From Cladocopium goreaui (lineage: Eukaryota; Sar; Dinophyceae; Suessiales; Symbiodiniaceae): a stretch of DNA of 64,000 bases. The DNA lies in the NCBI GenBank assembly GCA_947184155.2, contig CAMXCT020000904.1, positions 122,004 through 186,003 of the forward strand, read 5' to 3'. Each line of letters starts with the position of its first letter. The first letter of the stretch is position 1. Position numbers and translations under genes: made by a program. The notes below the pieces were generated by a model. It did no database searches. It saw nothing but the letters and a program-made list of their open reading frames with translations, and was not told the origin of the DNA. Positions 21,133-58,974 of this stretch are shown here, in pieces.

Positions 21133-21238
21133 CCTGCCGTAGCAGGGTTTCATTTTTGGAAGAAATTAGCGGTCGGTCGTGTCAATGCATGAGCTGATGT
21201 GAACCGTCAGAGGATTGATTTACAAATGTGCTCTCACT

Positions 21239-28176: not shown

Positions 28177-28320
28177 TCGAAAAGCAAAAAAGACATCAAC
28201 AGAGGGGGACAAAGTGAAAGGGGTCAACAAAGCAAGAACAAGAATACATGAGTGTGTAACGGCAAGAGTTCGGATAATCCGGGCTGCTGTTGAGCCAGAG
28301 GAATTCAAATACGAAGCTAG

Positions 28321-36448: not shown

Positions 36449-38664
36449 TTACCAGCGAGATCTGTGAGAGTCATACGCTGAAGTGTAAGACCGAGAGGAG
36501 CCTTCGCGATGTTGATCTCGAGCACGGCCTTCACGGTAGGAATAAGAGTTGCCCCGATGATCATGCGTGGAATCGTCCCATGTTGAATTGTTGTCCCAGT
36601 AATGACGGCTGCGGTCTGGCATTGCGTGATCCGAGGTCTCATAGTGGGTGGCAGCTGCTCTGGTGTGGGTGGTCGATGGTGGGTTGGAAGGTGCAGGTGT
36701 ATCGGTGGTAGTAGCTGATGGTGCAGGTGGTGCATGATCAAGTGGTGGGTCTTCTGGAGGTTCGCGTGGTGCCGTGGCAGTTGGTGCATGTGCGTCTTGT
36801 GGATTTCGGGTAATCAACCCTTGGAAAACCGAGTGAGTAGAAGCGACATAGCATACTGATGCGCAACTGGAATTCATTGCCGTAGCACCGTCTTTTCCTC
36901 TGGCTATGCCTTGTAGAGCGCACAAACGTTGGATTTGGTCGTTTCCTCCAGATTGGGCTCGCATGCATTTTGGGGAGCGACAAATGGCCAGCAGGCCGGA
37001 TGGATTTTGTCCTTTGCCAATCTTGTAGAGCTGGGAGGTGCAAAGTTTGACTGAATATGCTGGTAAGTCATCGATGTCCGCAATCTCAGAGGACATGCCG
37101 AAGAATCCGTAGCACGGGTATTGGGTCGGGATGCCAGCTTCGTTTTTTGTCCAGCTAGCTGGGCGTATGCAGTCTTCAGCAAGAATTTTGGCAACTGATT
37201 CCCAACTCGTTTTGTGATAGCTCAGGTAGGTGCCCGCGTGTTCACCACGATAGATAGGTTTTTTGGGTATAACCCCGTTGGCACCGTGATGGTCAGCAGG
37301 TTCTCCGGCTCCACATAGAAGGCCTGTGTTCTTCTTGCCAGACTTAAGTCAAGTAGTCTTGCTTGTGCGAAGGCCTTGGCAATGTTCATGACAGTGGCCT
37401 GACTGGCTTTGATGAAAATGAGGTCATTGTTCATGGTACGATAGGGTTTGGCCAACTGATTGAACATCTCATCAACGAAATTGTTGAAGAGGATTTTGGT
37501 GGGCTGGTCAAGTTCAGTACGAAGTGATACTATATGATCACGGTCCAGTTCTGTCAGGCATCGTACTCGTTGTGGGTCTTCAGCAGCCGAAAGAAGTTCG
37601 TCAATTTCGATGTCATTTTTGTCGAACTGTGAGATTGAAAATGCTTCCGCTGCTGCCTCCGAGGTTTCGCTGTCGCCATCAGGTAGACGAAAAGCCACGG
37701 CTCCCAGTGGGGCGGTTGCAGGTGCCGGTGGATGTGAAGGTGGGTCAGAAGGTGGTGGTCCAGGAGGTGATCTGGGGCGATGGGTGCCACGGCGATGAGT
37801 CTCTGGATAATCGTTGTTGTTCCAATTGCCCCAGGAATCATCAAAGTCCGGTGTGGGAATGAAAGCAGGATCCGAAGGACGTGGTGCTGGTCTCAATACA
37901 ATTTCATGGCTTCGATGGTGACGACGGGGAGTTCGTGAGCGTGGTGTAGGATGTGATCGGTGTCGTCGATGAGGTAGTGGTGAACGTCGTCGGGGTGGTG
38001 AGCGTTGTCGATAAGGGGAAGGTGTTCTGCGATCCTTGGGATGATTGGTGGTGGATCTGTGTCGAGGAGGGGGAGACCGAGGTCGTTCTGGACGGTGACG
38101 TGAAGGTTGTCGGCGATGGGCTAGTGCAGGCGATCGAAGGGAACGTGATCTTCTTGTCGTCCTGGATCTGGGTCTTCGCGGTGGTGATGTCGAAGGAATA
38201 GGAATGGGTGCTGGTGGAGTCTCTGAAATAGTGTGGTCCGGAGCGGTAGGCTCAATGGGTCTGGCTTTCGGGGCAGGTGGAGGCAAAGGCGTTGGTGGCG
38301 TCGCAGCGGGCAATGGCGGTGGAGGTGCAGGGCCAGTCGGTGGTCTGTCTTGTTGAAGAAGCTGTTGACGTTGTTCTTGAAGACGTTGGGAGTCAAGGAT
38401 CATCTGCTGTTGGGCTTGGATAAGACGAACAGATTCCGCAAGCTGTTGAGTCGTAGAGCCCAATGTTGCCAAGTCCGGTTGAATTGAAGGTGGAGGTGTA
38501 TTCACTGGGGCTGAAGGAGCATCAGTTGATGGGGTCGATGGAGCTTTCGGAGCTGAGCGGCGTGTTTTTTGGGTTTCTTCTCTGATCGAACCTTTGGGGC
38601 TGCTTTGACTGCCGTATGTTGAGGGGCAGCTGGAGGAACTGTTCACCAAACGTAATGTGCTACC
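36449..38664 (-). pseudogene. Arg/Ser/Pro-rich protein with a conserved C-terminal domain, one frameshift
   Basis: No clean ATG: the frame opens near 38,664 (EDPGNQGSTLRLVNSS), possibly after a short 5' exon beginning at ATG near 38,777. It has a Gln-rich coiled region (QQQMILDSQRLQEQ), then an SR/RS-like stretch of about 110 residues (RRPRSRTTRRSRSLRS), then an acidic and helical part. Near 37,230 the frame shifts and continues YLSYHKTSWESVAKILAED, then YPCYGFFGMSSEIADI. It ends in an Arg/Ser/Tyr-rich tail at 36,449. The H-x-T...W segment faintly recalls ADP-ribosyl- or phosphotransferase folds, too weakly to name it. First gene of the Penelope-like array. Confidence 0.6.
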
Positions 38665-39075
38665 TTGGTTCCCTGGGTCCTCTATAAGGTAGGTTTGGGT
38701 TATTGAAGACAGAAATAAACAAAAAATAGAGTTGATACTGCAACGCTGCTGCCTTTTGTTTTCCTGGGTTTTCCATGTTTCTCATTTTTTTAAAAAAAAA
38801 TAATGTTCAAGGTTGCTCGCAGAGCATCCGTGTTGAACACGATGGGTACGACAAACGTTTTCAAGCAAAAAGACAGTGTTTTTTCTCTAGGGTGTTTTCT
38901 TCACTTAGTGTATTTCGCAAGGACAACGCATGACAAACGATTGTTTACGTAAAACAAAACTCCAGAAATTATAGTTAGTTCAATAATAAATGATCTATAT
39001 TTTTTTAATTATTATATGTTTATATAATTTTATATTTTATTGATATGCTTTCCTCCTGGCAAGAGCAAAAGAGAG
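38665..39075. other. AT-rich spacer between the two gene clusters
   Basis: Poly-A/T tracts (for example 38,790-38,805 and 38,990-39,035) and no coding segment. GACANNTGTC sites begin exactly at its right edge (39,076). Confidence 0.5.
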
Positions 39076-39441
39076 GACATATGTCAAAGTTTTGTGTCAA
39101 TTGTCACAAGTAAGCACAAGTAAACATGTGTCTGTATACCCTGGCCTCGAAACATTACCATCCAACCTCAGGTGAAGCAAGTGGAGTTGGAATTATGTTA
39201 TCTAAGATTTTGCATATTCTCGTAGCATTCACAAACACAAGTATCAAAAAAATCCTGAGTTTCGCCTGCAAGGACAACTGTTTTTACCCAAGAACCCTAT
39301 GATGAGATCAAACACATGATGCTTGACATGTGTTGAAAATCTAATTTGCAGCAGTTGCCAATGATTGGGAAGACAGAAGTTCTCCATGTCGTGCAACACA
39401 CTGCATGCAGGCAGCTGGCACAAGTGTGAGACAAAAGTCAC

Positions 39442-40871
39442 TCACACATGACGCAGCCGCAGAAACTCCGATGCAAAAGTCTGGGCAACACTTGACCCAA
39501 ATTGTGGAGTGTAGGTACCTGACTCCTCTAGCAGGTCCTTCCTCCCGGTGAAACTTCGGCCATCTTCACTTCGAGTCACCAGTTGCTCACCGGACAATTG
39601 TTCCCTGGCTGGACAATCTCTGGACAGTTGAAAGAAGCACGCTCTGTTTGTCCATATCTGCAGCGGCTTCTGAGTGGGGCCAGCAAATGCTCCAAGATAA
39701 GTCTTCACACGATGGGCCTTCACAAATGACAACACTGACCTCATAGGAAGACACTTGTGCAAACACGTGTTGTCCGGCTGCTCCAAGCAGACCATGATGC
39801 CAATGACACACGACACAAGGAACATCATGGCTGCTACCTGCATGTGGCTATTGCCAGTCCTGACAAATGTCCTTGTGGTGTCTCCCCACCACTGGTTCCA
39901 GCCATACCTTTGGCTTTGCGCCAGACATAATATGACAAATGAAGAACAAGGTGGTCCAAGCCAACAAAGACCATGTTCACATATGCTCATGAGCATATCC
40001 ATCCAGAGACGAAGGCCACATGTGTCGAGACAACTGTGCATATGTGAATGGATGATGTCAAACCCAGCTCCTTCAAAGCCTGCTTTGATCATCTCCTTGG
40101 TCAAGTTGGCTGCGCCACACCAGTACTCAACAAAGTGGTGGAGATGATGTGAACACTGGAGCCTGTTGGCAAAAGCACGCTGGCACAGGAGTGACAGCTT
40201 CATCGCAAGGTCTGTAACTGATCGCAGACATGGGTACAGTGAGTCCAGGAGAGGTGGCCACATCTTGATCGCATTCCCACCAGACACATGAAGATCATGT
40301 GCCAAGAACCGAGAAAAGGTCTCCATCAGGAACGACGACATTTGTGCACACCTGCAGCAGTCAGGGTGGGCAGCCAGGATAGTTTTGAAGACACTACTAA
40401 GTACTATAGTATTAATTAATTGTGATTGTCAGAGCAAAAAACTGTTTAAGTTTCTTTGTTACGTTTGTTATTATTCAACAACATGATTATCAACCCTGGC
40501 CTGTTGAAGGAAGAGTAGGGCCAGGCATCCTCATAGCCAAATGCAAGAGCTTTAGCACATTTGTCCACAAATGGGTCAATTGGCAAATCGGTCACAGCTG
40601 CAGCTGCTGCATTGGCACTTGTTGCCTCATGCATTTCAGTGACACCTGATGCCTCAGTGCCAGTGCCAGAAGAGCCAGCATCATCATGGACACATGTCTC
40701 GGTAGCAGCATCCACCTCCTTGTTTTGCTGACACTTGTTCTTCTTCTGACACTTGTTCTTCTTCTGCTGTGGAGGTGCAAAGCCAAAACCATAGACAAAT
40801 GGAAGAAAGGTAGCTGGCCACATCATAGTCCGCTGCCGGCGCCTTTCTGCAACTGCAATTGATTTCCCCAT
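39442..40871 (-). CDS. Methyltransferase-like protein, two exons
   Basis: Exon 1 runs from ATG 40,871 (MGKSIAVAERRR). It is Lys/Gln- then Ala/Thr-rich and ends PYSSFN. A GC-AG intron (donor CAG|GCCAGG, acceptor CTGCAG|GTGTGC near 40,350) joins it in frame to a ~300-residue exon. That exon has HFVEYWCGAANLTKEM then GAGFDI, like a SAM-binding motif I, and WLGPPCSSF, like the Pro-Cys motif of C5-cytosine methyltransferases. CLEQPDN follows. No full methyltransferase motif set is evident, so activity is uncertain. It is the last gene of the motif-rich cluster. Confidence 0.6.
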
Positions 40872-41183
40872 GGCCGCTTTCAGGGGAGGAGTGAAATTTA
40901 TACTCAAGATAATAGTCAGTGATCAGTGACCAGTATCCAGTGGAATTTCGAAAATTATGCCATGATTTGATATAACATGGTTTTTCCAACATGAATACAA
41001 TTACATAGTTGTTTGAAACAGTTTGACATATTCACGTAAAAAGCTGCGGGCATGAAACTCAATCTTAAAACAAGTCCAAGACAAGACAAATTCACTCAAA
41101 GTCTTGTGCATTCATTCATTCAAACTTGAGGCATTTTTTTAAGCGCAGCAGCATACATGTGCGAGCCATTGCAACACACTTGT

Positions 41184-44100
41184 TCAAGGACGCTTAGGAT
41201 ACTTAGTAGGAGGAGGCATCTGTGCGATGACCTCTCTTATCACAGCAAGCATGCTGTCTGAGACATGTCCAGGCTGCTGCGCTTGATTCGGATCATCGAG
41301 TTCAAAGCCAGGCAAATGTTTTGCCAAATCCCAGCGCTCCCAAGCTTCCTGATGCAACTGCTTCAGAGCCTCTTCCCAGGACATATGTTGAAACGCCTTG
41401 GAGCGAGATCCACCTGGTCCATAAGCAGCCCACACATGTCCCTCTCGAGGCTTGATCTTAAACTTTACGGTGAAGCGGTGGGCCTTTTGGTCCAAGCCAA
41501 ATGACATTCCTGGAGGCGCCAATCTCTGAAGGATTGCAGGTGTGAAGTGCTCTCTTGGCGACACAAGTACCACATGACGCCTCCTCCCTGCTTCAGCTGC
41601 AGCAGGTTCTGCTGGAGGTCCTGCTGCAGGCTCTGCTACAGGAGCAGGACCTGCAGCAGGCCCAGCTGCAGCATCAGACACTTCTTCCTCATCCAGCTCC
41701 ATGTGCAGCGGCTGATTTTCCTCATGTTCCTCCATGTGCGGCGACTGATGTTCTTCATGTTCCTCCATGTGCGGCGACTGATGTTCCGCATGTTGCTCCA
41801 TGTGCGGCGACTCATGTTCCTCATGTTCCTCCATGTCCGGCGACTGATGTTCCTCATGTTGCTCCATGTGCGGCGACCTATGTTCCTCATGTTCCTCAGC
41901 GACTTCGGGAAGCAGTGCTAAGGGCACAGGCTCAGAAACAGATGGTGCTGGAGGTGGCGCTGGTGCTGACACCTGTTCTGGACGATCGCTGGATTGAGGC
42001 TGAACTCCACGGCCTCTGCCTTTGCCTCTGGCTCTGCCTCGTCCTCGTCCCCGACCTCCTCGGCCTCGACCAAATGCTTTGCGAGAGGCAATCTTCTTCT
42101 TCTTTTCCTCCTTCTCCTTAGACGAGAATGTTTGAAATTAGTTATTTCTAAAGCTTTCTATTTCACTTCATTTTGACTAATTAATTTGAGAAATCTAGTC
42201 AGCAACCAAGATTCATTTTTTTTCTCCTCCTTAATCTCTGCCCACTTTCTCTTCATAGCAGTTCGAGGATTGACAAATGTCTTGATGTCGCTAAACTCTT
42301 GTGCTTCATCCTTATCCAGCCCCTCCAGCAATGATGCAGCTAGGTCGACATTTGTCACTGCATTCTTCTTCTTTGTTTTTTTTTCGCTGCTGCTTCCTGA
42401 CTTTTCACAAACTCTGTGAAAGTTGCATCCCCAAGCCGCTCACAACTGCGGGTAATCAAATCAGCTCGAGACAACTTAACAGGATTGGGCACCCCCAGTG
42501 CATCAGCAATGATGACCAAGTCATTGTAAGTCAAATTGACCGACTGGCGAAGGGCTGCCTGCGGCAAGGGTTCAAATGGACGCTGTGGAGACAGTAGTAC
42601 GCCAACACCTTCCTCCAATGATGCTTCTGCATCTGCTGCTACCCAGTCATTTGGGTTGAATGGAAAGACAAATGACCCCCCAATGGATGGATTGGTGCTG
42701 AGCTTGTAGGTTTGAAACCTGTCATGATGACCATGTTCCTCCAACGGCCACACCATAGTTGCCCAAAGTCGATTGCCAAGGCTGAGAACAGTTGTCTCTG
42801 TGGACAACTGTGACAGAAGTTGACCAGGAAAACACATGACAGAGTTCAGACCATCCTGCAAGTGCAGCCCAAACTGATCAAAGAAAAGAAGATTTTTAAG
42901 TAAGTCTATTTGAGAATTGAGGAAACAATGCCAGCAAGCAAAAGATGCTCAATCAAAATCCAAGTGTCGTCAACTTTGACATTTGTCTCCGCTAAAGTAT
43001 GTTCAGTGTAAAATCGAATCCACTCCCATGCAGCATATGATTTCCCATACTGTTCCTCATTGACACTTGTCCATGATTTCTTCTTCATGATGTTGCTGAA
43101 AGATTTGGGAAGACGATGATAGCGGCTAGAAAAGATCTTGCGACCATACTGCTCATCAGCAGTCTGTCGCTTGCCCCATTTCTGGACGAATTCCTCTTTA
43201 GTCAACTTTCCCACATGGAATAGCTTTCTGGAACTGAAGACATTGCTGTTCATGACACATGACTGCACACGTGGCAAGGTCATCTTTTGGTTCGGGTGAC
43301 TCTTTGCCTCCACTCTCACCGCTTGATGACAATCTTCGACGATCTTGTTGTCGGGCAAGACAGTCAAGACACCCTTCAAGACAAATGTTCCAGGGACACT
43401 TGTTTCGTCCCAGCCACTCTGCTCGAAAAGGGCACACGATAGCCTGACAGGGGTGCTGAACAAGAATTGCAAGTCAGGGACAATTTTAGCACATTTGTCC
43501 GACTGTTCCGCCAGATTGAGAAGCCGCCAGTCTCTCCTCATCACACGCATGGCTTCCTGGCGATGATCGACACATGACGAGACAAGTCCCACAAAGCACT
43601 CAGGAGCTGTGCCATACCTTGACATTGTCCATAATCTTCTTGACAGGACATTTGACGCATATTTGAACACAGTTGCTGCTAGGTCATCATCATCAGTTCT
43701 GCCTTGGTGCACTTGGTAGTACACCAACTTCTTCAGAGACCGCCAATCATACAGCGTTTTCACAATGGCCAGCAAGTGATCATCTTTGTACCAAGACAAA
43801 GCCCACGTCATGAGTTGCTCAACTCCTTGCTGGGGGGTTTTGATCTCAGAGACTTGTTCCGTATACCAGGTCCAGCAAGGTCGGCTGACCAAGAGCATGA
43901 TACATGCAGTCTCATGGTTGACATATGTCAAAGCTCGATGTAGCAGTTTCAAGCCCCCCAGATCCCCTTTGCACTTTTGAAATTTTGTATTTACTTCTTC
44001 AGGGGCTGGCAGCCCCTCATCTTCAAAGTACCAGTGCAGAAGGCAACGTGTGGCGAAAAACTCTTTGAGCTGTTGGTGTGCACACTCATGCCAGGCGAAC

Positions 44101-46975
44101 CACCTGCCTGGTTTTGGTAAGCCCTTTTTGGCTAGAAAGGATGGCAACTCTGACATTTGATTCCACAATTCTTCATCTGTTGGTGTCCTGCCAAAATCAT
44201 CTTCAAAGTCCAGAGCCATGAGACACTTGTACCGCTGGAAGTGCTCCGAGTCCTGCTCCAAAAGTTTTTGCACAACATCATCAGCCACGAGTTTTACGTT
44301 GGATGATTTTTGAATGGTGTTTAAAAAAAACATAAAACTAATATGATAAGATTTGCCTTGAGTGAGTCCTCCATGACACATGTATCAAAGAAGTTGGCCA
44401 GGAGATCATACTTTTCGTCTCCAAAAGCCCCAGAGCCATGTGGCTTATAGTTGACTGACCAGGCATATGTTGTGGCTAATACAGCCTCGTTGAACTTCGG
44501 GTCACAGCCATTGGACAGTTTCAAGTCTCGAATCAGTCTGTGCACTTTATCACAGTGACAGTGTACAAGCAGATTGCGGTGTTGCAAGTAGGCCAAGCCT
44601 GCCTGGGCCACAATGTTGCACCAAAGAAACAGGTCAAGGGGAAAATAACCATACAAACGTATTAAAACAATATACATGTATTCTGCATTTACATATAATA
44701 TACAATGAATGGCCACATGTCATGTGTCATAAATTCATACTTTTATGAAACCTTCCCATTTGATATTGCTGCTAAGAAACAGCACCTACACCGCCCTGAT
44801 CAATCGAGACAGTGAGGATGGGTATATCCATAGCCTTTGACAAATCTTGGACATGTGTCTCACCAGTATGGACATCCTTGATCAAGACCTGGTTGCCTTG
44901 GACAATCCTCTTCTTGTCTGGACTCAGCGGAGACAAGTACATTGACAAAGGTGGAGTAAATGCTGGAAGTGAGAGTCGCCCCCGTGAAATGTGCCACAGC
45001 TGATGTGAAAGAGCAGCTAGAAACCTGTAGGCAGCCAAACGTTCAACTTTGCGTGTGGCGGCCAGAATCTCGATTTCCGGCTCCAGATCAAACTCAAGTG
45101 GGGCAATGACTTTGGATCTAGAGACATGTTGAATCGGGCAAAGAGCACAACTGTCCATCTCGTGAGAGTAACATATGCTGACAATTGTTTCTTTTTGACT
45201 GTGAGTCGAAGCATCAGTCACCATGTTGATGTGTGGAATATTCAGGAACCCAGTTTTGACCTTCCCGAAATAAATTCCCAGCACTTTGCGGTTCCAGTAC
45301 TCAACAGAAGACGCTTGTGCACCTCCTTGAACTTCATCACTGCGCAACTTGGCGACAACTGACAAGCTGCAGTTCTTTTCCCGAGCTGCTTCCAGCATGG
45401 TCCATATTGAGTCTGGGTGCACCAACACATGTGACTCATGAGTTTTTGTCGGTCCACTTCGACGTTTCCTGGTGGATGACACTTGTGACAAGAGTAGATT
45501 GTAATTGGTTCATCTAAATAAACCCAACATAAAGAAAGTGAAGCCAAAATTTGATCAAAACAACTAGCTGAAGTAACATGGCTAGTTTCTTAAATTTTCT
45601 GGCAGGAGCAGCTTGTTGTGCTTGATGTGGTTGTTCTGGGGTATACATGTGCAGCAAAAACTGATCCATTGCAGTTGACACAAATGTCGCCATCAAATCT
45701 TTCAAATCCTGGAGCAGCTGTATTGACATTTGTCCCAGAACCGCTTTCTGCCTGGAGCGTCTAAAGCGTTCCAAAATAGCAACAAAAATGGTAATATCGA
45801 CAACATGTACCTCCTCTTGCCAATCAGATGACAAATGTCCAGCATTGAACATAGCATGCCACTCCTGAGACCAAGCTGTAGCAATTCCTCTATGGACACT
45901 GCGAAGAAAAGCAGCCAATGCAAGATTCCCAGAAGAAGTCACCAACAAAGTTTCACCTCGATTCGCTGGAAACTTAACCTGCACTCCAGCAACAGCACTC
46001 ACCCAAGGCATCACCATGAAGCCAACTGCCTTCAAGTAGGACAACAGGAATTGAGCTTTGGCCTCCTCCCGAGCTCTGTTGACAAATGTAAACAGGCAGA
46101 TCACCAGTGCCAAAGAAGTGCAGAGATTTCGGTCCAGTAGGCCTGGCCTCCAAGCAAGGCTGATTGGTTTGGCATCACCAAAATCCAACAAACACTTCAC
46201 TCCGGCATGAACACAAAATATTGAAAGTGTATCCGGCTAATTTTAAATGATAGGTTCTTACTAATAAATAAGATTTTGGAATCAACATTTCAGAAACCCC
46301 TACCTGGCGACAGCTGTCCTCAAACTCACATCATTCGAAGCAAAAGCTTTGTTTGTTACCGTCCCAAGAAGATCTCGGTAGAACTTGTAGGAACCTCTCT
46401 TCTCATGCCCCTTTTCCCGGATGATGTCATAGAAGTACGCTATATCCCAGTGAATGCGATTAGCATCAGTGTTGTCAACATACCCCACAGTGCTTGGCAG
46501 CTGAAGGTTGTTGAAGACCATGAGTCTTGCATCATCCCGCACCATAGTAGCAGAGCACAGGGGACAAATGAGACAACAGAAACAAAACTCCTGAACCACA
46601 ATTCAGCTACAAGAACACCATAGACATACATCAACACAATTGCAGACTAATTGACTTCCTTTGATTCAACTGAAGCGCATGCCATTGCATCAAAGGAAAT
46701 GCATAATTCTCAGAATCAAACTTGCTGATATAGTGGAGCTGCTCGCCATCAGCCTGTCAGCAACAATAATAAGAATCAACATTATTACATGACAATAACT
46801 TGACTTGTGCTGCCACACTCACAAAGCAGGCTGATTTCACAATTCAAGTGATCCAATGTTTTCAACTCTTCGCAGTGAAGCCAAGCTCTCATAATTTAAG
46901 ATTGCCTGAAGGCATGTCAGCTGCTGGTGCTTCGAACAGGGTGCCTCCCCTATAGTACGAGATATTGCGGTCAAC
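41184..46975 (-). CDS. Large multi-exon protein of unknown function
   Basis: About ten exons by frame and splice-like borders: ~46,975-46,890 (DRNISYYRGGTLFEAP), 46,740-46,680, 46,570-46,300, 46,200-45,590 (FMVMPWVSAVAGVQVKF), 45,480-44,790 (NIPHINMVTDASTHSQKE), ~44,620-44,345 (KVHRLIRDLKLSNG), ~44,310-42,930, ~42,865-42,380, 42,355-42,190 and 42,125-41,184. One internal donor looks like GT (GGCATT|GTTTCC) with acceptor GATCAG. The C-terminal exon has an RGRG-rich stretch (GRGRGGRGRGRGRARGKG), six 11-residue acidic/His repeats and a final domain including VWAAYGPGGSRSKAFQH. No family is recognised. The 5' end is uncertain. Well over twenty GACANNTGTC-type sites lie in its exons. Confidence 0.65.
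41695..41905 (-). repeat. 33-bp coding repeat, six copies
   Basis: In-frame repeats of 11 residues of the form MEEHEEHQSPH in the last exon of the large gene, with small changes (MEQHAEHQSPH, MEEHEENQPLH). Highly charged and probably disordered. Confidence 0.85.
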
Positions 46976-47221
46976 TGCACAAATGTCACAAAACAAAATT
47001 ATATAAACAATAAAACATCATGTGCTTGTTCACACAAACAAAGGAAACATAGCAACTATGCCATCATCATTCACTTAGACAGATGACCACAATATGCAAC
47101 CCACAGCACCACAGAAACATGCAGCACAAATGACTTCCCCTCAGGACATATGTCAGACCATGATGCCAATGACACACGACACAAGGAACTGAACAGATGA
47201 CCTCAGCCAAAACAGATGACC

Positions 47222-48809
47222 TCAGCCAAAAATCTGCTCGATCTCAGTCTCCATAGCAGTCTCACCTTCGGCCTCCACAAGCTCCCACTCAGACGGCACA
47301 TGTTCCATCTCCGACTGCCAGGTCCTCTCACACCTCATCGGGCAGTGGTGCAGAGGGATGCCGCCCGGACGTGAGGCCCTCCACTTTGACAGGCACTCAT
47401 TGTGACACACATGTGCACAAGGCAGGGCTGTCACCGACTCTCCCACTTGGACCTTCTCCAAGCAGATGGGGCATGGATCTGGCTCCTCTTCGGCAGGCTC
47501 TGACACATGTGCTTCCACATCTGACGACAGGCTGTTGTCACTCTCATCATCAGACATGGCATCTTCACGTGGAGGTGGGCGGGCAGCAGCCTTTGACTGA
47601 GCAGCAGGGACAGGTGTTCCAGGAGCACGACGATAAGCTCGAACAGGAGTGCAAGGAGGTGCTGGTGTCAGGAGTCCCACCATGTGACACAACTTGCTGC
47701 ACAGATGTCGCAGCAGGCTGCACATGTGTCACAGGGGCCACTGCAGTTGCTGGCTGGACTGTCGCAGCAGGCTGCACATGTGTCACAGGGGCCACTGCAG
47801 TTGCTGGCTGGACTGTCGCAGCAGGCTGCACATGTGTCACAGGGGCCACTGCAGTTGCTGGCTGGACAGTGACAGGTGTCCCATCAGCTTGTACCAGCTC
47901 TGGGGGCTGCACAGGGCTGTCTTGAGGTGGTGCAAGCCCAAACATCTGACCAACATCACCATTCCCTGTGGACACCTCTGCCACAGTGCGCTTCTTCTTG
48001 GCCTTCATCCACGAATTGTCCTGATCAGTGCAACATGCAGAACAGCCCATATCCCAATATGATGTTTTCACTCAGCCATGTAATGTGAAACCAAAACATC
48101 AAAACACAAAATATTTTCAAATTCATTTCGAGTGTCCCAGCCATGTGGATAGGCTTGCTGCAGGACAGCATCATCACATGGAGACAAAGGTAACTTGCTC
48201 ACAATTGTCTCAATGTGTGCTTGGCCACAGGAGATCGCCCGAATCCAGCAGTTGAAGAGATCTGTGTATGTCACCACACCTGAGTCGGTCGGGAAACTGA
48301 CTTACTCTATCAGTAAATGCATAGATTCACATTAACATAATAAAAGCATTATACTACCACACTACCAAAATACACTATAAGATACACACCATGGCACGAA
48401 GATCATTGATTCGAGTTGTAGGGTTCAACCGGGTACACATGTACACAAGGGCCAGGAGACCAGTGTTGCTCAACGCATGAGTCATGCTAGGGTCCAAGTC
48501 TTTGCAAAGCCATTCCAATCCCTCTGACAAACGACACCGAGGTGTTTGACGCAAAAAGGTCACTGAAGAGGAAATCTTGTCCTGGACACCTGACCCAATC
48601 ACCTGTCCCCTCTCTGGTAGTGCACGACGCTCCTCCTGCTTCTCCTCCTCTTTCTTCTCTTCCTTCACCTCCCTTTCATCCCCCGATTCCTCATCAAGAG
48701 CTGGTTGCTGCATTGCCATCTGTGCCATTTGGGGCAACATCATCATCAAAGGGTTCATCATCATTTGCTGCTGCTGAAGCCTCTGACGCTTCGATGCTGA
48801 CATTGGCAT
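47222..48809 (-). CDS. RING-finger protein, about three exons
   Basis: Exon 1 from ATG 48,809 (MPMSASKRQRLQQQQMMM) is Met/Gln-rich then acidic/Lys-rich, and includes GLEWLCKDLDPSMTHALSN. Exon 2 is at ~48,300-48,075 (TYTDLFNCWIRAISCGQAHI). Exon 3, from ~48,010, has three 18-residue Pro/Ala/Thr/Val repeats, then an acidic stretch and a RING-type zinc finger: CPICLEKVQVGE, LPCAHVCHNECLSKW, HCPMRC. RING domains usually mark E3 ubiquitin ligases. A frame change near 47,680 is either a further small intron or an indel. The stop is at 47,222. Confidence 0.65.
47700..47870 (-). repeat. 54-bp coding repeat, three copies, each carrying the palindromic motif
   Basis: Three nearly identical 54-bp units (18 residues, containing VAPVTHVQPAATVQPA). 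Each unit holds the 9-mer ACATGTGTC with core ACATGTGT. Confidence 0.85.
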
Positions 48810-48814
48810 GGCTC

Positions 48815-50830
48815 AGTACAGATGACAAATCAGCACAAAAGAGACAGGTTCCACGAGGACACTTGAATTGACCGAGATCGCTGCACATACCCCACAAATC
48901 AGCACAAGTGTCCAATGGTTGTCCATGCGTTTTTTTTTGAATTCTATATTTTTTTACTAGTGTTTTGAGATCATTTCAGAACTTTTGAGAGATTTTGAGA
49001 AATTTTGAGAGATTTTGAGAGATTTTGAGAAATTTTGAGAGCTTAGGCTCAAACACACATCCTCTGCAACCAACAGGAGATCCTCACTCGGGTCCACACA
49101 TGTCCACATACCTGAAAGGTTCAACCAGAAAGGACATCAAGTAGATCAAGATGAAGTCAAGTTGAGACATCTGTTGAGACATCAGTTGAGACATAAGTTT
49201 CAAGCGACAAGTGCAGGACTGTCACACATGTTCACAGCATTGGATTGTTGCTAAGAAGCAGCACCTACACCACCCTGACCAACCAAGGCAATGACAATCA
49301 ACCCAAGTTGCACTCAAAATGCCATACAAGGTAAGACAGCTGTGCAGGAGATGCTACAGGACATGTGAATAGTTGACTATGTAGCATGTCAGGACATATG
49401 TGTCACACCCACTTTGTCATTTTTCACATAAAATACAAATCAGCAAACAGGTCTCTTCACCAGAGGTGCAGGACTTTCCAGGCTCCAGTCCATGGTGTCA
49501 TGGCAGTCAAGATGCTCCATCACCTGCAATCAATAAGTATACACGAATGCACTGAAACTTCAGTTCCAGACTCATCAAACCAGAACATGACACAGATTCA
49601 GACACATTTCAGAACATGACCACACCTGTCGCTGGATAGTTTCATGCCAGCCAGACAAATGTCCACTTCGGAAGGGTCCTGGAGCCCTCCGCCAACTGCA
49701 GAACTCAGTGTACCACAGGAGCAATGATAATGTAGATGTCATATAATATATGACGATTCTATATTTGCATTTTATGATACTTTGCATTCTATTATTTGCA
49801 TTATAGATTCATTGATTACAACCTCTTCACTCAAGCATGGTGTATTTCCATGTCATGGCGCTGAGTCCTGAGCACTATTGCCACCAGTAAAGCACCTTGG
49901 GATAAAATTGATGCACAAGTGGTCAATTACACAAGTCTACAATGGGCAATTGACACATGTCACAGAATCATTGACTCAGAGAGAGAGCTCCAAAGAGACC
50001 TTTTTTTCTCCAGTTTGGGAAGCGGAATGTCACTTATGATGCGAAGTGACAGCAAAATGACCCATCCAGCAATCTGTCTTGACCACCATGAACCAAACAA
50101 ATTTTCAACTGTGTATGCCTGGAGGATTAAATTTGGACATGTATATTCTTATCCTTATCGATATATATTATTTAAATGTATATAACAATAATAATAATAA
50201 TATATATATTATATTGAACATCTTGCACATTAAGACACATTGCTGGTTTGATCAAACAATGTCAGACAAATGTTGACAAATGAATCCCTTGATAGATATT
50301 GACAAATGTTCCTACCGGGAAGCTAGGTCCAATTGTCTCAGCTCTCTCAGACAGTTGTCTTAGTTCGAGTGTCAAAGCAGACAAGCACACCGAACTGCAG
50401 CAATCAAATCATGCAACACAAGGATTCTGATGAATTAGAAGACACATGTTCAAAATGCAAAAGAGCAAAATACAAATATAATTAAATGAGGCAAGGTACC
50501 CAAATTCGACGCGAAGTAGCGCTGATCCGAACGTCGAAAACGAGGGTTCCGGAAGAGCAGCTTGAACCTGAGACACACGAGCCATCAGCATATACACAGG
50601 AAAGCTCAATTTGGACATATGAAACATTTGGACATATGAAACATTTGTGCACAACAAGTAGCAGCAGCTTCACCATGCGAACTCTTCCAAGCTCGAAATC
50701 TTGAAGGTTCCAGAACAATTGGATGGTGCTACTGTAGATCCCATGGTCCTCCATGATCTCAGTCCTTAGATAAGTCACAAGTGCCAGGAGTGATAGACAC
50801 AAGTTCTGAAACACATGTCAAATGAATTAG
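48815..50830 (-). pseudogene. Exon fragments of an unrecognised gene
   Basis: Coding-looking segments on the minus strand: ~50,814-50,655 (EIMEDHGIYSSTIQLFWNLQ), ~49,690-49,629 (DPSEVDICLAGMKLSSD), ~49,535-49,465 (VMEHLDCHDTMDWSLES) and ~49,300-49,245 (GQGGVGAAS). The middle two duplicate exons of the gene at 50,857; the last duplicates an exon end of the gene at 41,184. No start, stop or continuous splice path can be drawn, so this may be a decayed mosaic. A TTTTGAGAGA-rich run lies at 48,960-49,030. Confidence 0.4.
49305..49690 (-). repeat. Exon-pair duplication, copy 1
   Basis: About 385 bp closely matching 52,110-52,515 in the same orientation. It spans two short exons and the intron between them (shared CAATCAATAAGTATACACG). 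It differs by scattered substitutions and a small indel near 49,500. Confidence 0.85.
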
Positions 50831-50856
50831 TACAGTCATTAAAGTTGAAAGCCAAG

Positions 50857-53800
50857 CTACATCACTTCATCTGGAATGTCGAATTGTGGGATCTCCAGCT
50901 CCTCTTCGGACAAATGTGGCTCATCCTCCTCCTCCTCATCCTCTATCACCTCCACATAGTCCTCCTCCTCTGACACATGTCCCACTGACACACGTCCCTT
51001 GCCCTTCCCCTTGCGCCACGGGGGGGGGCACCCCCGGAGGGGGGGGAGGAGGCGACTCCGACACTTGTCGCTTCTTTCGCCAGGAGACGCTCTTCGATCT
51101 CGCACGGCTCTTCGATCTCGCGCGCCTGGCTCCACCTGCAGCCATTGGAGGTGAAGGGGATGACAAGAAAGGGATGAAGTCATCATCCACCATCATCCCA
51201 TCATCACCATCATCACTATCATCCACATCATTACCATCATCACCATCATCACCATCATCATCCACCTCCATGCATCCCCAACCTCCTCCGACAATTGTAC
51301 ACTCTTCATCATCCTCCTCAAAGGCCGAGGTGTTGACATGTATCCTTCTTGATGACGCCGAGGCAGCCTTCGCACTGGCCCCCAAGAACTCTGTCCCCGT
51401 CTTCTTCTTGGGCATTGCCTTCACCTTGGCCTTGGGCATGGCCTGCAAGTGGACAAAGTGACAATTGTGAGACATATGTCAGCAGCAACATCCAGCTCAG
51501 ACACATCAAACATTCAGATGCTATTCACATCAGTTTGCAAGACTTGCTCAACACAACAATACAACTGCATTTGCAGCCTTAAGTTAGTTTCACAGCAGCA
51601 GCAATGACAAATCTCTAGCCTTGGGGGCTGGTCCGACAGTTGTACCACTTCTGACTTCCTCGATGTAGGGGACCAAGTGGTCAAACCTGGGCAACATGAC
51701 ATGGGTTATGCAAAATGTCAATCATTACACAACCGTTTGTTCCATTTGAAGGGTACTTAAGCTAATTTTCTCCAACAGTGAAGTCAAATTCAAATTTGAG
51801 CACAGTGTGAAAATGAATCTAATGCAGCCAGAACACCCCTCAAAGTAGCCATTTCTGAATTGACAAATGTATTGGTTGATGTACTCAGCTGTGAATCTCT
51901 TGAAGTCGGTAAACTCCACATCTGTCGTATTCAGCAGCTGAGTCATGCAATCAACCCAAGACATATCTCCTCGCATATAGGCGTGACACATCTCCACATC
52001 TTGTTGCCAGTTCGTGCTTGTGGATTGGATGCAGAGCACAGGCTGACACCCGATGGCCTTAGGTTGAAAAGAAATGAACAGCTGCATTGAAATACATCAG
52101 CAGCAATCTCAATCAAGAGCCAAGTTGCAATCAAAATGCCGTACAAGGTAATAGCGCAGACAATTGTACGGTGCCATCCAGCTGTGCATGAGATCCTGCA
52201 GGACATATGTCAATAGTTGACTATGTAACATGTGTCAAACCCACTTTGTCATTTTTCACATAAAATACAAATCAGCAAACAGGTTTCCTCACCAGAGGTG
52301 CAGGACTTTCCAGGATCCAGTCCATGGTCTCCATGAAGTCAGGATGCTCCATCACCTGCAATCAATAAGTATACACGAATGCACTGAAACTTCAGTTCCA
52401 GACTCATCAAACCAGAACATGACACAGATTCAGACACATTTCAGAACATGACCACACCTGTCGCTGGATAGCTTCATGCCAGCCAGACAAATGTCCACTT
52501 CGGAAGGGTCCCGGAGCTCGCCTTAATGAAGTCAAGAGTTTGAATTCAAACTTGCCCAACATTCCTGCATGACTTGAAGATGATTTTACAAGCCAAACAC
52601 ATGGGGCAATGGAATAGTACAGCCAAGGGACTCCACTGGCATGCCCAGGTCAACCCGGTGCCACTCGTTCGGGGACATGAACTGACACATGTCTCCAACG
52701 TTCTTCATCCAATGTTCCGACACATATTCCTGCAGGAAAGAGGCTATCATGCATATCAAACACTTAAACCAAAAAATGGCAAGAAGTACCAATCAGTTTC
52801 CTCAAGGCAAACCAACACAAAAAGCAAAAAGCAGTCATGCACAGCAACATCAATCAGTCCTGACGCATGTTCTGCCATTTCTTGCCCTGGCCGTATCCCG
52901 CAATGACCACTTTCTCTGGCCACTGCACAATCTTGTCCCGGTTGTACCGGGAGGACAGTTGTCCGATGCAGTCCGGCAGGACACTTGTTTCAGCGGCATT
53001 GCGGACAATCTCAGCCAATGGCAGTGCGACCGAATCAAGTCAGACAGAAGGGAAACAACAGGTGATCCATCAGAATTGAAACAGACGATGCACTCCCTAT
53101 AGATACTTTGAACGTCTGAATGTTTTAGATAAATATGCTGCCAAGTTACTGTTCTGATCTCATCCAGGGTTTTTCCACGGAAGAACCCATGATGGATTTG
53201 GAGCCTTAATCACAACAAGTCAGACACTTTCAATGCCCTCAATCACAGGAAAAGGCATTATTCAAGACAAATGTGACAGCTATGAATTTTTCTGAAAGTG
53301 AAAGGCAGATCTGAGAACCTGTCCTTTTGACATGCCGCCAGGTTGATGTGAGGGTCCAGCTCGTGACATCGCCCTTCTGCTCTTCCGACAGTTGTCCACA
53401 AAGCTCCAATGCCCGGGCCGGGCTCAGCAGCGAGAGCAAGTAGATGGCCTGATCCAGAGAAGCACAGCATTCAACAATGCAGCAACTCATCACATTTGAA
53501 CAGTGGCAATAAGCAAGAAGGCAAGACAAAATCATAAAAGCAGACATGGCACTTGCTGGGCTTTCCTGAATCAAGATCTGATCAATGCAGAATTGACACA
53601 TGTAAACTGTAAACTTCTCATCAGTGACAATGTAGCAACTGCAAACAGTGTGTCATTTAGAAAGAAACTTGAACAGTTCAGTGCACAATCTGGCAAGGCT
53701 TGACTTGAGGTTAAGACAAGAGTCCGGTGCCCTTCAAGAGCCTCTCGCTCTGATTTAGATAGTGCCAGGGAGGGCAGAGCCACGCTATTGCCCGAGGACA
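50857..53800 (-). CDS. Multi-exon protein of unknown function with acidic and RS-like C-terminus
   Basis: Probable start ATG 53,800 (MSSGNSVALPSLALSKSE). Supported exons: ~53,455-53,330 (LSPARALELCGQLSEEQ), ~53,020-52,860 (AEIVRNAAETSVLPDCIGQL), ~52,735-52,610 (EHWMKNVGDMCQFMSPNEW), ~52,515-52,455, ~52,357-52,295, ~52,066-51,855 (QSTSTNWQQDVEMCHAY), ~51,690-51,600 (RFDHLVPYIEEVRSG) and ~51,445-50,857. The last exon has a basic start, an Asp-rich stretch, an Arg/Ser segment (RRARSKSRARSKS) and an acidic end finishing PDEVM; within it the frame changes over a Pro/Gly tract near 51,030, by splice or indel. No family recognised; exon joins are unproven. Confidence 0.5.
52110..52515 (-). repeat. 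Exon-pair duplication, copy 2
   Basis: The second copy of the 49,305-49,690 segment, inside the gene at 50,857-53,800, where its two exons fit a continuous series. Confidence 0.85.
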
Positions 53801-54949
53801 TATGAAGGCAAATGTGACAAATGTGACAAATGCAAAGTAGCTGTGAAAGTAGCTGTGAAAGTAGCTGTGAAAGTAGCTGTGAAAGTAGGTGTGAAAGTGA
53901 GTGAGTCGATCGACAGTGCATCATCATTTTTCAGTCATTAGAATTATATCTTTACTTGTCATCATTTTTCATTATAACCTTATATTGTCCACATGTATAT
54001 GCATTTACTCCGAAGAAATGTTTGCTTGACATATCTGCACGACATTTCATAGGTCTGAGTCGGAAAATGGCAAACATTGTCAATGTCAGATGTCTCACAT
54101 GCATCAAACACTTCAACGAAAGACTCTCTGAACAAATTAAAGTCTTGACTTTGCTAGTTCAGTGAGCTGTTGTATTAACTAATCATCATGTCCCAGGTTG
54201 GTGATCCAACTTGAGCTTGGCACCACTAACCAAGAACTTGCAGAGAAGACAATGTATAGACCTTGATCAGCCTGGCAGCAGATTCCGAAAGAACTGTATG
54301 GAACAAAGTGGAAACCATTTATTAAACTCTGGAGCTACTTGGATATGTCATATTGAACAGCAGTAGCCAAGATCTAACTAAAATAAATGCCATAAGCTTG
54401 TGGACACATGTCACAGTCACAAGTCTCATAAGACCACACCTCATTGGTAAGAGCCTGGGCACAAGAATAAGTTTGATACAAGTTCAGACCCAGTGAATCA
54501 GTGAATCAGAAACGACACAAGTAACACCTAACTAAACATCATCATTCACTGGATTCTTGACTGAGCTCTCCACATCTCCAAATAGTTCCACACCTTGGCC
54601 AGCAGGAATTTAAACATGTGTGACATATATAAAATAAAACTGCTGAAAGATCTTGACATCAAGTTCATATTCAGACAAAAGTTCGGAACAACATTGAATC
54701 ACAAGTGTGTCTTTGCTTCGTCCTGTTTTTTTGTCCATCCGATCCCCTGACAATTGCTCATGCCTCACAGTCTGTCGCTACTATCGACCACACACAGACA
54801 AACTAGGCATAATTAAGGCAGAATAACAGACAACTTGGCACCATTGGTGCAACATGACATGTGTCTAACAAAAATATCACCATTTTCAGTGACATTTGAC
54901 ACAGTCACAGCACATAGCAAAGTACATATGTGCAATATACAAAAAGACA
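53801..54949. other. Spacer with dispersed palindromic motif, no gene recognised
   Basis: No coding segment is supported. Next to the gene start is a short run of GACAAATGT and of GAAAGTAGCTGT repeats (53,810-53,900). Core ACANNTGT sites continue, so their density does not depend on coding sequence. Confidence 0.5.
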
Positions 54950-55631
54950 TTAGACGCAATCATCTTCCACCACTTGAGTGTCATCCCAATCATCACCATA
55001 TTGAGGTACAGTTTGAGGAATCTCATCATCACCATCATGACAACGGAAATCATCAGGTGGCTCAACCTGGGAATCTGTAACCCACTCACCATGACACATG
55101 TGACCACCACGAACTGGAGAATTCTGAGGCCCCACTGGCTCTGACACATCTGCATCCTTCTCCTCAAGAAACGCATTCGACCTTCTGAGCGACTTGCATG
55201 GCGACTGGAACGAGGGACAAGTCTTCCTCTTACCCTTGCCCTCAAGAGTGCCAAACACTTGTACAGATTTGTTCGGGCCACGCATAGTGATGGTAATATT
55301 CCATGGTCCATCCTGACTGATGACAAGAGTTCAGAAACAAATTGAACTCTACAATGATATATTGTGGGGAATCTACTGACATATGAGTTTCAACATTGGG
55401 CATCCACAAAAACAAAATTCTTGTCTTAGATGCAGCATGTGCTAAATGAAAAAAACATGAAATATTGTCACTGACGAACATCAGACCAGGGACAGGCAGC
55501 GGCTCAGCATCACTGACAAGACATCTGTACTCACCTGTGCGCCACTTGAGGACATCCATGACACTTGTCCCCGTCACCTTTTCCCAACCCTTCTGCGTGT
55601 CCCCCTTGGAAAGAAGATCAACTGTCGCCAT
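54950..55631 (-). CDS. Small two-exon protein, unknown
   Basis: Exon 1 from ATG 55,631 (MATVDLLSKGDTQKGWEK) through VMDVLKWRTG. The second exon (~55,310-54,950) reads DGPWNITITMRGPNKSVQVF, then a basic stretch (KGKRKT) and an acidic end (DDWDDTQVVEDDCV). The join is in frame if the donor is CACAGGT|GAGTAC and the acceptor TCAG|GATGG, that is a non-canonical GA-AG intron; a GT donor one codon earlier would shift the frame. No family is recognised. Confidence 0.5.
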
Positions 55632-56332
55632 GGGACACAGCTGACAAATGTAACAAATGATCTGGGCGGGACAAATGATTTGTGGTGAACTGCGCCTGGG
55701 CCACAAAGATAACGCAGGACATAACAAGTGCTGCAAGAATATGTTTGTATAACAAGTGAGGACCATGATAACTGGTGTCAAACAAGGCATCAGCTCCTAG
55801 TGAAGTTGAGCGTTCCCAATATTGAGGCCTGCACTGCTCCACACACCCACAGAGCACCTGGCACACGCTTGGCTAGTAACAGACACATGTGTACACTGGA
55901 ACTACTGGAATGCAAGGGTTTGGATGACTTGCCAAGCTTTCATGATGATTTGATGTTCCGCCCTGCCCCCCTTGACTAACCCAAATTGAGTGAAACAAAC
56001 TACCAGTAGTGTTTGAACACAACACTCCAGATTGAAGCAGTAAAGACATATGTGATACTTGTACTAATTGCAGTACCTTTGACAGAACTGAACCCCTACC
56101 TTTTTTTCAGCTCGGGATTCGATTTTTCTGTGACCCACACATGACGCACATGACCAGGACAAATGATATAAATCAAAAAAGCCTTGACATTTGACAGTTT
56201 GTTTGAATGCAGGTTTTTGAAGTTGAAAAACTAGCATCAAACCAAACTGGAGATGTCCCAGTATGTGACAAATGTGACAATGGAAGACCTGAGCGTCAAT
56301 GATGGACAAATGTCTCAGTACGGACAAATGTG

Positions 56333-57612
56333 TCAGCGCATATGCACGATCGGTGGAGCAGGTGCAACAGGAGGGACAACTCTATCCAAATCAGCAGGCT
56401 TCAAGTAGAGCCCCCATGCCTCCAACGACACTTGTCCTGCAGGGAGGCCATGCTGAGACATGGAAATTGCTGTCACTGCAACTTTTTACAGTAGTTAGTT
56501 ATCAAACTCCATCAAAGCTATTTTTTATCATGTCTCAAAACCCCAAAAACCAAACAATCACACATGTCATGTATCACCAAACAATCACACATGTCATGTG
56601 TCCTAAATAAAAATACTGCTGCTGAGGGAAGGCACCTTGATGTACCAAAAACGTGTGCTCCTGGTTGTAGGACAACTGTACATGAAACAATTGTCCCCGA
56701 TACGGGACAACTGTAGTCTGGCATGGGAGGCGCTCGTTCAGCCATGACACATGTGCACTTAAGCTGCGCCCCCGTGGTCGGCGCTGCCCCCCTGCCCAGT
56801 CCAATGCTCTCGCGACGAGACAGTTGAAGGCAGTCCTAAGGGCAGAAAGCAGAATCAGAAATGTGACTTATATTACTTAGAATCATGTTTGGATCCCTAT
56901 GCCCCACTATAAATACCAAACACTCTTCAAGGAAGAGTTCAAGAAAACAATAATGAATGAACAACAAGTCGCTCCAGACAAATGTGCCGCTTGGCCTCCT
57001 CCACATTGATGGCAAATGCTCCTGGGTCATAGTGCCTTAGACAACAGTTTGTCCAGCAAGACCTGAACTCAAGTCATAACAAGTTCTTTCTGAACTGAAT
57101 GAAACTTCACAAATATCTCACAAATAATGTGTAAACACTAAAATTCAACATGCAGGAACATTGCGCAACTGCTTCAATTCAATATTCTATTTGATCAAAA
57201 CATAAAACAAAATAAATAGAACCCAAGTTCAAAACGAGTGACGGCTTGTGGATTTGGCCCACAGCTTCAATCAAGAGGTTGTTGGACAAATGTACCGCCA
57301 ATTGTAGCCCCCTTAGCCATCAAACAATTGTCATCAATGGCATCCCCATGAATTAAGAAACAACACCGATACCAAAAGAAAGACACAAGTAGTAGAATCA
57401 TTTCACATTGAAAATCCACTCTCAAAATATAAAATGCTGATAAATAATAAACAAAAAACTCCCGAAGATCTTCTCGAGGATTCGGGTTCGCACTTGCCAT
57501 CTTGCGAACAACGAATTGGGTGCCCTCCTCACCCATCCCACACAGGTACTCAAACACAAGTTCTGTGGACACCTGTGAGTCCATTTGGCGTTCCACTTCA
57601 CCATGACGAGCC
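56333..57612 (-). CDS. Multi-exon protein, unknown
   Basis: Probable start ATG 57,612 (MARHGEVERQMDSQVSTE). Supported exons: 57,612-~57,450, possibly ~57,340-57,280 (NCLMAKGATIGGTFVQQ), ~57,045-56,955 (DPGAFAINVEEAKRHICLER), ~56,830-56,630 (ALDWAGGQRRPRGRSLSAHV, then VQLSYNQEHTFLVHQG) and ~56,446-56,333 (VSLEAWGLYLKPADLDRVV, ending APPIVHMR and stop). No domain is recognised. It is the first gene in the motif-rich cluster in the direction of transcription. Confidence 0.5.
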
Positions 57613-58422
57613 ATGACAAATGACGACAAATGACGACAAATGACGACAAATGTCGAGTCAGCCGGGACAAAACAGCGAAGTCAAAACTCTTGGGACAGAT
57701 GTCTGCGGTGATCAGCCAAGATATCAATATTTGAGTGGCAACTGCAATGATCAATGACTGGAATGAGAGGTAATTAAAACAGAATCCCTAAAATACAGAC
57801 ATGTGGGCAGCTAGCCTAGAGAGTTGACACAGAACCCATCCCAATGCCCAAGACAAGTCAGTAACACCTGTGTCAGTGACCTTCACGATGAAGAGGTGTT
57901 GATCAAGTTCATGACGAAGAGAAACCAAGAGCAGCGGCAGGGCAAGACGGTGGACAAGTAAGGAAAACAATGTAACTAGTAAGTATGTATTTTGTGGACA
58001 CATGTCACCATTCCCCATGTCTGTATTGGGGATATGTTAATTTTGCATATGCATATGGGATAATCAACCAGAGGATATCAAATATTTCAATTTCATGTAT
58101 TCATATCATATGATATCATATGAATATATAGTTTTAAATAACATAAAGTCTCTGCAAACAAAATGTGGCAAAACAAAACTGTAGCTGCAAACAGTTGACT
58201 TGAAAAGAAAACAAACATGTGGGTGACGTGATCTTGTTCGATTAAGTTTCCTTATTCAAAACTCATTTTTTCTCAAAATTTCTCTTTTTCCCAAGTTTTC
58301 TCATATTTTCCCATGTTTTCCCATGTTTTCTCATTTTAAAACTCTTTAAACCTCAAAATTTCTCAATATAACTCTTGAAAAAACCTACCCTATCCAGAAC
58401 CCACCTAGGTCAAGGTAGCACA
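57613..58422. other. Spacer; the motif-rich zone ends here
   Basis: Holds four tandem ACAAATG(A/T)CG sites (57,615-57,655) and the last full palindrome at 57,997. From about 58,020 the sequence becomes AT-rich, with TTTTCTCA and TTTTCCCATG repeats at 58,255-58,380. No gene is seen. Confidence 0.55.
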
Positions 58423-58974
58423 TTACAAGTGGTGAACTGTTGATGTCGTGGTAGCCACTGGTGGAGGTTGAAGAACTCGAGGTGGGTAAGGTGATCCTGG
58501 TAGAGGTATGGGTGGTGTGGTCAGTGTCTGAGCTGGAGCCGGAGCGGTTGGCCATGTCGTTGGGAAAGCCGGTGCCGTTGGAGTTGCAAAAGCTGGTGAA
58601 GCGGAATGGAAGGTAGTTGTGTCGGGGGCCGTTGCAAGGGAAGTGAATGACAGAGGCGGCATAGTGGAAGCTGTCGGCTGGGGCGAAGTCGAAGAAGGCC
58701 ACGTAGGATGTAATGCCGAAGGTTGTCCAAACAAATGTTCAACTGGCGTTGGTGTGGTTCCGGGCATGTGAGGTGGATTGATCGAATACTGTTGTGGTTC
58801 AATAGGGTATGCAGGTTGAGGAGTTGAGGTCGGAGGTGGTGCTGTTGTTGGCCATGTCATAGTTGGTCTGGGTGTAGATGCAATAGAAGCTGATTGCGGT
58901 GGCCACGTCAAAGATGGAGTCGCAGGCTGCGGCGTGGTAGGCCATGACGTCGGAGGAGTAGTCCACGGGTACAT
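58423..58974 (-). CDS. Pro/Thr/Ser/Ala-rich protein
   Basis: 183 residues from ATG 58,974 (MYPWTTPPTSWPTTPQ) to a stop at 58,423. Low complexity throughout, with repeated TWP and PTT motifs and no globular part. Its composition resembles the N-terminal third of the ORF1-like gene at 35,960, so it may be a fragment or relative of that gene. It has one ACAAATGT site and otherwise belongs in character to the left-hand array and not to the motif-rich cluster. It stands about 530 bp from the right direct repeat. Confidence 0.5.
   Translation of the reverse strand: MYPWTTPPTSWPTTPQPATPSLTWPPQSASIASTPRPTMTWPTTAPPPTSTPQPAYPIEPQQYSINPPHMPGTTPTPVEHLFGQPSALHPTWPSSTSPQPTASTMPPLSFTSLATAPDTTTFHSASPAFATPTAPAFPTTWPTAPAPAQTLTTPPIPLPGSPYPPRVLQPPPVATTTSTVHHL

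Follow-up and report, generated by a model that had tools for sequence, protein, structure and literature searches.

The DNA considered here is a window of 64,000 nucleotides from Cladocopium goreaui contig CAMXCT020000904.1, in which a domain at 39,076-58,006 is saturated with the palindrome ACANNTGT and its longer form GACANNTGTC. This domain is the interior of a DNA transposon of about 19.8 kb with terminal inverted repeats (TIRs), referred to below as D. The ends of D, its copies elsewhere in the genome, its nested insertion and the saturation of both its coding and its noncoding sequence are all observed directly, as are variants of the same word frame in some distant relatives. The explanation that we favor, with confidence falling a little short of even, is that the words are family-specific binding sites for an element-encoded protein that would coat or mark the element along its length, in a form of self-activation like that of VANC. 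A wider proposal is more speculative: D may represent a giant dinoflagellate transposon group in which each family's variant of an ACANNWGWC word is spread body-wide, across exons and introns alike, and read by a co-evolving element-encoded protein, giving a self/non-self address code over 20 kb. Positions are those of the window unless a contig or locus is named, and genome searches cover an assembly of 1.166 Gb.

A transposon saturated with one palindrome

Exact counting places 121 of the window's 128 copies of ACANNTGT inside 39,077-57,998, the remaining 7 being scattered across the ~45 kb outside the domain, and all 33 copies of GACANNTGTC fall inside 39,076-58,006. Dinucleotide shuffles of the domain (n = 200) gave a mean of 11.9 and a maximum of 21 for the shorter form, and a mean of 0.66 and a maximum of 4 for the longer one. 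Among gapped palindromes built from two 4-mers with spacers of 0-8, GACA-2-TGTC is unrivalled, with 33 occurrences against 10 for the runner-up. The density of ACANNTGT is 6.1 per kb in D and 0.37 per kb (75 in 205 kb) in 21 control loci, comprising L005, a neighbor of the window, and the opening 10 kb of each of 20 contigs chosen by number. The full 10-mer does not saturate the genome as a whole, where it occurs 16,083 times against 12,187 for the reversed pattern. An original prediction, made by a reader of the bare sequence, had reported ~113 cores, at least 32 full 10-mers and ~6 cores outside the domain; these counts are real, if slightly low, and it was right that the rest of the window has no full 10-mer and that the domain departs from expectation.

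All 16 central dinucleotides are present, the AA/TT and CA/TG classes being the most frequent, which bears out the freely varying center that had been described. Beyond the 10-mer the sequence shows no more than a weak preference for G/T, and the flank logo is near background past ~2 bp. No shared sequence outside the core, as in a dispersed copied repeat of the miniature inverted-repeat transposable element type, was found in the site flanks, and the view that this is not a copied repeat stands. An iterated palindromic profile broadens the motif to G[A/t]CANNTG[T/a]C, with ~202 sites in the domain against an average of 54 in five shuffles at the same threshold. Spacing is slightly more regular than random (coefficient of variation 0.83; null 95% range 0.835-1.17), and spacing analysis of the domain found no helical phasing. 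Some short tandem arrays within D hold the motif or a near-motif; three 54-bp tandem units at 47706-47867 carry one site each and lie inside one of the exon segments counted below.

The sharp edges reported at 39,076 and 58,006 are limits of the sites and not of the element, whose ends lie ~430 bp beyond, so that either end of D has ~430 bp without an exact 8-mer site. D itself (38643..58435; no strand assigned to the element or its motif domain) has the ends TCACCA...TGGTGA, as defined by TIR alignment and genome copies. It is flanked by the inverted repeats CACCAAACGTAATGTGCTACCTTG and CACCACTTGTAATGTGCTACCTTG; by alignment, the TIRs are imperfect and approximate in extent, the left at 38643..38703 (plus strand) and the right at 58375..58435 (minus strand). 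A 5-bp target-site duplication (TSD), ACTGT, can be read by eye immediately outside, at 38638..38642 and 58436..58440.

The end pattern of D occurs 82 times in the assembly with at most two mismatches, and its reversed control does not occur. Paired by eye, these ends give 16 inverted pairs 19.8-25.2 kb apart, D included, and 9 pairs ~3.45 kb apart. Ten full-length copies (D and nine fetched) were inspected by eye, and six of them combine a 5-bp duplication with TCACCA...TGGTGA ends (D, C325, C1367, C1791, C2141 and C5837); no such duplication was matched in C152, C2663 or C5981, and the right end of C885 is unread. A script that accepted exact duplications adjoining CACCA found one in 1 of the 9 fetched copies. 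A TSD of 7-8 bp was considered and rejected, the flanks of the ten copies fitting TCACCA ends and 5 bp better.

The insertion target of D is R, a long terminal repeat (LTR) element on the minus strand at 20608..60024, with LTRs at 20608-21132 and 59501-60024. These LTRs (525 bp) are 99.4% identical, which makes R, and D nested in it, recent. The minus orientation is our own reading of the primer-site-like sequence TGGTGACTCCGACATGG. R was also considered as owner of the motif and rejected: 21,133-39,075 contains four ACANNTGT, and D is nested in R.

Coding sites and the candidate transposase

The same signal runs through the genes of D. Profile sites number 30 in the 2,865 bp of six exon segments (five from tblastn of homologs and one from an open reading frame, ORF) and 172 in the ~16 kb that make up the rest of the domain, an equal density. 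Eight ORFs of D hold 31 exact 8-mers against ~6.5 for the summed means of synonymous shuffles; three of them (an ORF of 491 aa, 44772-45491 and 39442-40341) exceed all 300 of their shuffles, and the site counts of the other five equal the shuffle maximum. Eight homologs with 50-59% identity to the 491-aa ORF allow its residues to be compared: those touched by sites are 22% identical to the homologs (162 comparisons) and those elsewhere 56% (3,230 comparisons), which indicates that sites were taken up at positions where the protein can absorb them. The motif is a signal at the level of DNA, with constraint acting through exons too; a word that passes through conserved exons on spare residues must be strong enough to shape coding sequence. 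Equal exon density, the excess over synonymous shuffles and the variable residues at sites all uphold the recognition signature that the original prediction had proposed, although it missed the TIR transposon with its many copies and the variants in relatives.

D contains 36 ORFs of at least 100 aa, 24 of them on the minus strand, which carries every gene part of D described here. The 491-aa ORF (42906..44381), marked by an LPDNKIVED block and conserved among homologs, is a candidate transposase exon; together with its neighboring exons it reads like a DDE-type transposase, judging by conserved D/E blocks seen by eye. The preceding exon of this candidate gene (44321..44716; HCHCDKVHRLIRDLK) comes from tblastn of homologs. 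Further upstream, the ORF at 44772..45491 appears by eye to supply the first candidate catalytic residues (VTDAST, SIDQG), and the next one, at 45514..46200, is likely another exon of the gene, also by eye. A C-terminal exon at 42355..42861 is matched by homolog P0124 (25% identity); it looks SAP-like by eye and has a weak Rho_N match (E 0.025) below the cutoff. A candidate N-terminal exon at 48375..48809 resembles the start of EukProt model P0123 by eye, and tblastn found no match between it and the homologs. Also present is a RING-finger ORF at 47222..47725 (zf-RING_2, E 1.1e-8).

The protein collection contains 20 homologs of the 491-aa ORF, and a search with the joined exons (894 aa) returned four, all among those already found. 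In the genome the 491-aa ORF has at least 92 matches: 42, counting D, show 72-100% identity and the other 50 show 27-38%; with 87 of 260 candidates scored, these counts are lower bounds. A conserved peptide pattern used to look for viral relatives matched 62 stretches in viral contigs, none of which is a relative.

Variant words in distant relatives

Four of the 45 distant loci (L026-L029), with 31-33% identity to the candidate transposase, were read over 8 kb each, and ACANNTGT saturates none of them (6, 1, 0 and 1 copies). L029, on contig C1813, has 26 copies of the AGAC form ACANNAGAC in 8 kb, where the 205 kb of control loci predict 0.76 and shuffles give a mean of 1.4 and a maximum of 6; the copies occur on both strands, and neither a tandem array of the word nor other tandem repeats were found in that locus. 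L026 and L027 have 12 and 11 copies of the TGAC form ACANNTGAC against 0.88 expected, two of those in L027 belonging to a short tandem array. In the 21 control loci, the maximum for any variant (TGTC, TGAC, AGAC or AGTC) is 5 per 10 kb. The variants and the word of D have the common frame ACANN[A/T]G[A/T]C, within which the AGAC and TGAC forms are nonpalindromic.

The word shape used for this comparison, XXXnnYYYY, was picked after D and L029 had been inspected, and local tandem and microsatellite-like repeats (L026, L027; L028) were masked in the ranking of words. Simple-repeat words score higher in many control loci, and in L031 with its AT-rich repeats, so top rank alone proves little and the count against controls decides. 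Near the transposase exon, L026 (5133-5883) and L027 (5263-5803) also contain 12-bp tandem arrays of ATGCCAGATAGA, which on our own reading could encode an MPDR-type repeat.

Placement of the variant words was followed through the genome relative to 79 loci with a match to the 491-aa ORF. For the TGAC pair pattern, TACANCTGACN{0,30}ACANNTGAC, a relative stands within 20 kb of 10 of the 45 places, against an expectation of 0.12 (binomial 6e-17). This figure overstates independence in that three of the four places at C3702 repeat those at C2059, a near copy. One of the places at C2059 is inside the stretch used to derive the word; three others flank the relative at C599, a locus outside the four read. 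The AGAC pair pattern occurs at 198 places against 120 for its control, and, among the matches listed, 9 of 41 outside a satellite on C102 lie within 20 kb of a relative, some of them overlapping. All nine are at C2:1,095,289-1,116,577, a span of 21 kb that encloses the relative at C2:1,110,881. This C2 element shares sequence with L029 and is therefore another copy of that family, not an independent case. The satellite itself (G000 C102:976385-977374) is a 10-bp repeat, TACATCAGAC, that amounts to the AGAC word form in tandem, on a contig for which the genome search gave no match to the 491-aa ORF; a 12-bp TGAC array lies at C2135:56281.

What might read the word

Several uses can be envisioned for a word distributed in this way. 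Under the explanation favored above, each family would maintain a short word of its own, densely repeated as binding sites, and a family-encoded, sequence-specific protein would read that word and coat or mark the whole element. The machinery of the element could thereby tell self from host DNA, and word and binder would be expected to change together as families diverge. The likeliest use, by analogy with VANC on VANDALs, may be element-wide self-activation or anti-silencing; packaging in dinoflagellate chromatin or base marking might be the effect instead.

Repeated family-specific recognition words in transposons are already documented for VANDALs in Arabidopsis. There, VANC proteins recognize short motifs within the transposons that encode them, and the motif differs between related VANCs (PMC5735166): YAGTATTAY for VANC21, for example, and AGTTGTCC/AGTTGTAC for VANC6 (PMC5735166, PMC10398659). 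D resembles VANDALs in being a DNA transposon whose body holds many copies of a short motif and whose related families differ in motif. It differs in its dinoflagellate host and in sites that are dispersed, mostly nontandem and absent from the last 430 bp; and whereas VANDALs encode the protein that binds the motif, D has only a candidate. This candidate is a minus-strand ORF at 41184..41972 that contains acidic repeats and whose C-terminal stretch, on our own reading, looks like an AP2 or integrase DNA-binding domain; no significant library match was found for that stretch.

Among the four ideas in the original prediction, binding sites for an encoded factor fit best; the accompanying E-box hint is weak, the central NN not being fixed and the variants in relatives being nonpalindromic. 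A number of observations weigh against the favored explanation. No motif-binding protein was identified, and no result here speaks for silencing or its reversal. VANC motifs avoid coding DNA and are tandem in noncoding sequence, whereas the sites of D are equally dense in exons. Searches of Pfam, NCBIfam and PDB gave no significant match for the candidate transposase, and the structure model of the 491-aa protein is poor (pLDDT, the predicted local distance difference test, 43). Family-specific variants rest on 4 of 45 distant loci, and one of these four, L028, has no clear excess of any variant. L026 shows a mild excess of D's own form, ACANNTGTC (5 against 1.2), and D holds 31 TGAC forms, one mismatch from its own word, against 2.2 expected; the variants are thus not fully exclusive. 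The TGAC pair pattern, found at 45 places against 74 for its control, has no genome-wide excess, so only its location is unusual. Turnover between copies adds to this list: in two diverged copies of D (blocks of 84-95% DNA identity, long blocks near 94), 22 of 27 and 19 of 25 sites of D are still present, with substitutions of 3.0% at site cores against 4.2% in the rest and of 3.3% against 3.5%, all on small numbers. Such rates fit drift in dead copies and give no positive sign of selection.

Recognition by the host is the first alternative. A host chromatin or DNA-binding protein might read the sites, with the element selected to recruit it as a replication, condensation, boundary or silencing factor. 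Dense, dispersed sites would suit a coating protein, and the frame ACANN.G.C that the relatives' variants keep in common is what related host factors might demand. The same 8-mer, ACANNTGT, is also known as the site of Iroquois/TALE homeodomains; that likeness comes from an animal regulatory context, and Pfam scans of ~20 D ORFs found no homeodomain. However, different families in the same genome carry different variants. Binders encoded by the families account for this better than a single host factor would, since several host readers would be needed, and the 10-mer is genome-wide only 1.3 times its reversed control. We regard a host reader as unlikely.

Unlikely, too, is a direct role in cut-and-paste transposition, in which the transposase itself would bind at many places inside the element. 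Ac and En/Spm are known for their subterminal arrays of transposase sites and, like D, carry short, repeated recognition sequences within cut-and-paste elements; the motif variants track the transposase family. One of the nine short derivatives was read (L032; G000 C1341:149010-152520), a 3.44-kb element with the ends of D and a mostly unrelated interior. Its six ACANNTGTC against 0.52 expected, 12 times the control, weaken the case against a cut-and-paste role. Yet this derivative is unsaturated, with 6 ACANNTGT in 3.5 kb (1.7 per kb against 6.1 in D) and no full 10-mer, and where the sites of Ac and En/Spm are subterminal, the ends of D are precisely its site-free part.

Self-methylation would have D mark itself, for protection or recognition, through a methyltransferase-like protein encoded at 39442..40341 on the minus strand. 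That ORF contains, by eye and on our own reading, blocks like those of C5-methyltransferases (CGAANLTKEMIKAGFEGAGFDI, GPPCSSF, LEQP); modification sites are usually palindromic, and DNA methyltransferases carried by retroelements are known in dinoflagellates. We nevertheless consider this quite improbable: the ORF has no significant Pfam, NCBIfam or PDB match, and the AGAC and TGAC variants of the relatives are nonpalindromic. Another base mark, 5-hydroxymethyluracil, shows no sequence motif in Breviolum minutum (PMC11071213).

A mutational origin without function, through insertion footprints, indel repair or the spread of short tandem duplications, is highly improbable: some tandem arrays in D do hold the motif, and in an internal duplication (49337..49690 and 52160..52522; five sites at matching places, degenerate ones included) three of the five sites differ by indels, but indels between copies show no concentration at the sites (3 where 4.1 would be expected, and 2 where 2.6 would), the flanks are without copied sequence, and sites are located where the protein tolerates them. 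The internal duplication had suggested a hotspot of insertions or indels, which is not upheld between copies; the idea of repeated small insertions in the original prediction is likewise not supported.

Binding sites for a family-encoded protein, as favored here, have partial parallels elsewhere. The E2 site sets of papillomaviruses likewise consist of palindromic sites for dimers, dispersed through a selfish genome, but they are fewer and mainly regulatory. Bacterial DNA uptake sequences also saturate a stretch, genes included, with one word; the word of D differs in going with a transposon family. In the literature searched, with subscription papers and preprints mostly outside coverage, the string GACANNTGTC was not found, ACANNTGT occurs in ten papers, eight of them with an Iroquois factor in the title, and titles and abstract openings on dinoflagellate transposons describe no comparable element. 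With 16 full-length pairs of D ends, 9 short derivatives and at least 45 loci of distant relatives, some with other variants, co-evolution of word and reader is directly testable. If true, it would offer a way into the question of how dinoflagellates, whose chromatin is unusual, distinguish selfish from host DNA.

Further repeats and elements occur in and around D. Two arrays are 10-bp periodic: one of TTTTGAGAGA at 48963-49041, which also matches the short derivative, and one of TTTTCCCATG at 58262-58334, just inside the right end of D. R contains a Ty1/copia-type gag-pol on the plus strand (28638-35160), making a nest of elements with D; no 12-bp direct repeats were found around this gag-pol. 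A gag-pol ORF in the window has a match named Cladocopium goreaui, at 89% identity over 34% of the query. An R ORF at 24745-25377 has a Myb-like domain (E 3e-4, just under the Pfam cutoff). Inverted repeats of ~140 bp, 94-95% identical, flank R at 18211-18352 and 60013-60155, and R apparently lies within another small element of TIR-like form. Toward the start of the window, 2580-8299 is a 96-bp minisatellite of ~59 units, whose three minus-strand frames are open over very long distances, up to 2,118 aa.

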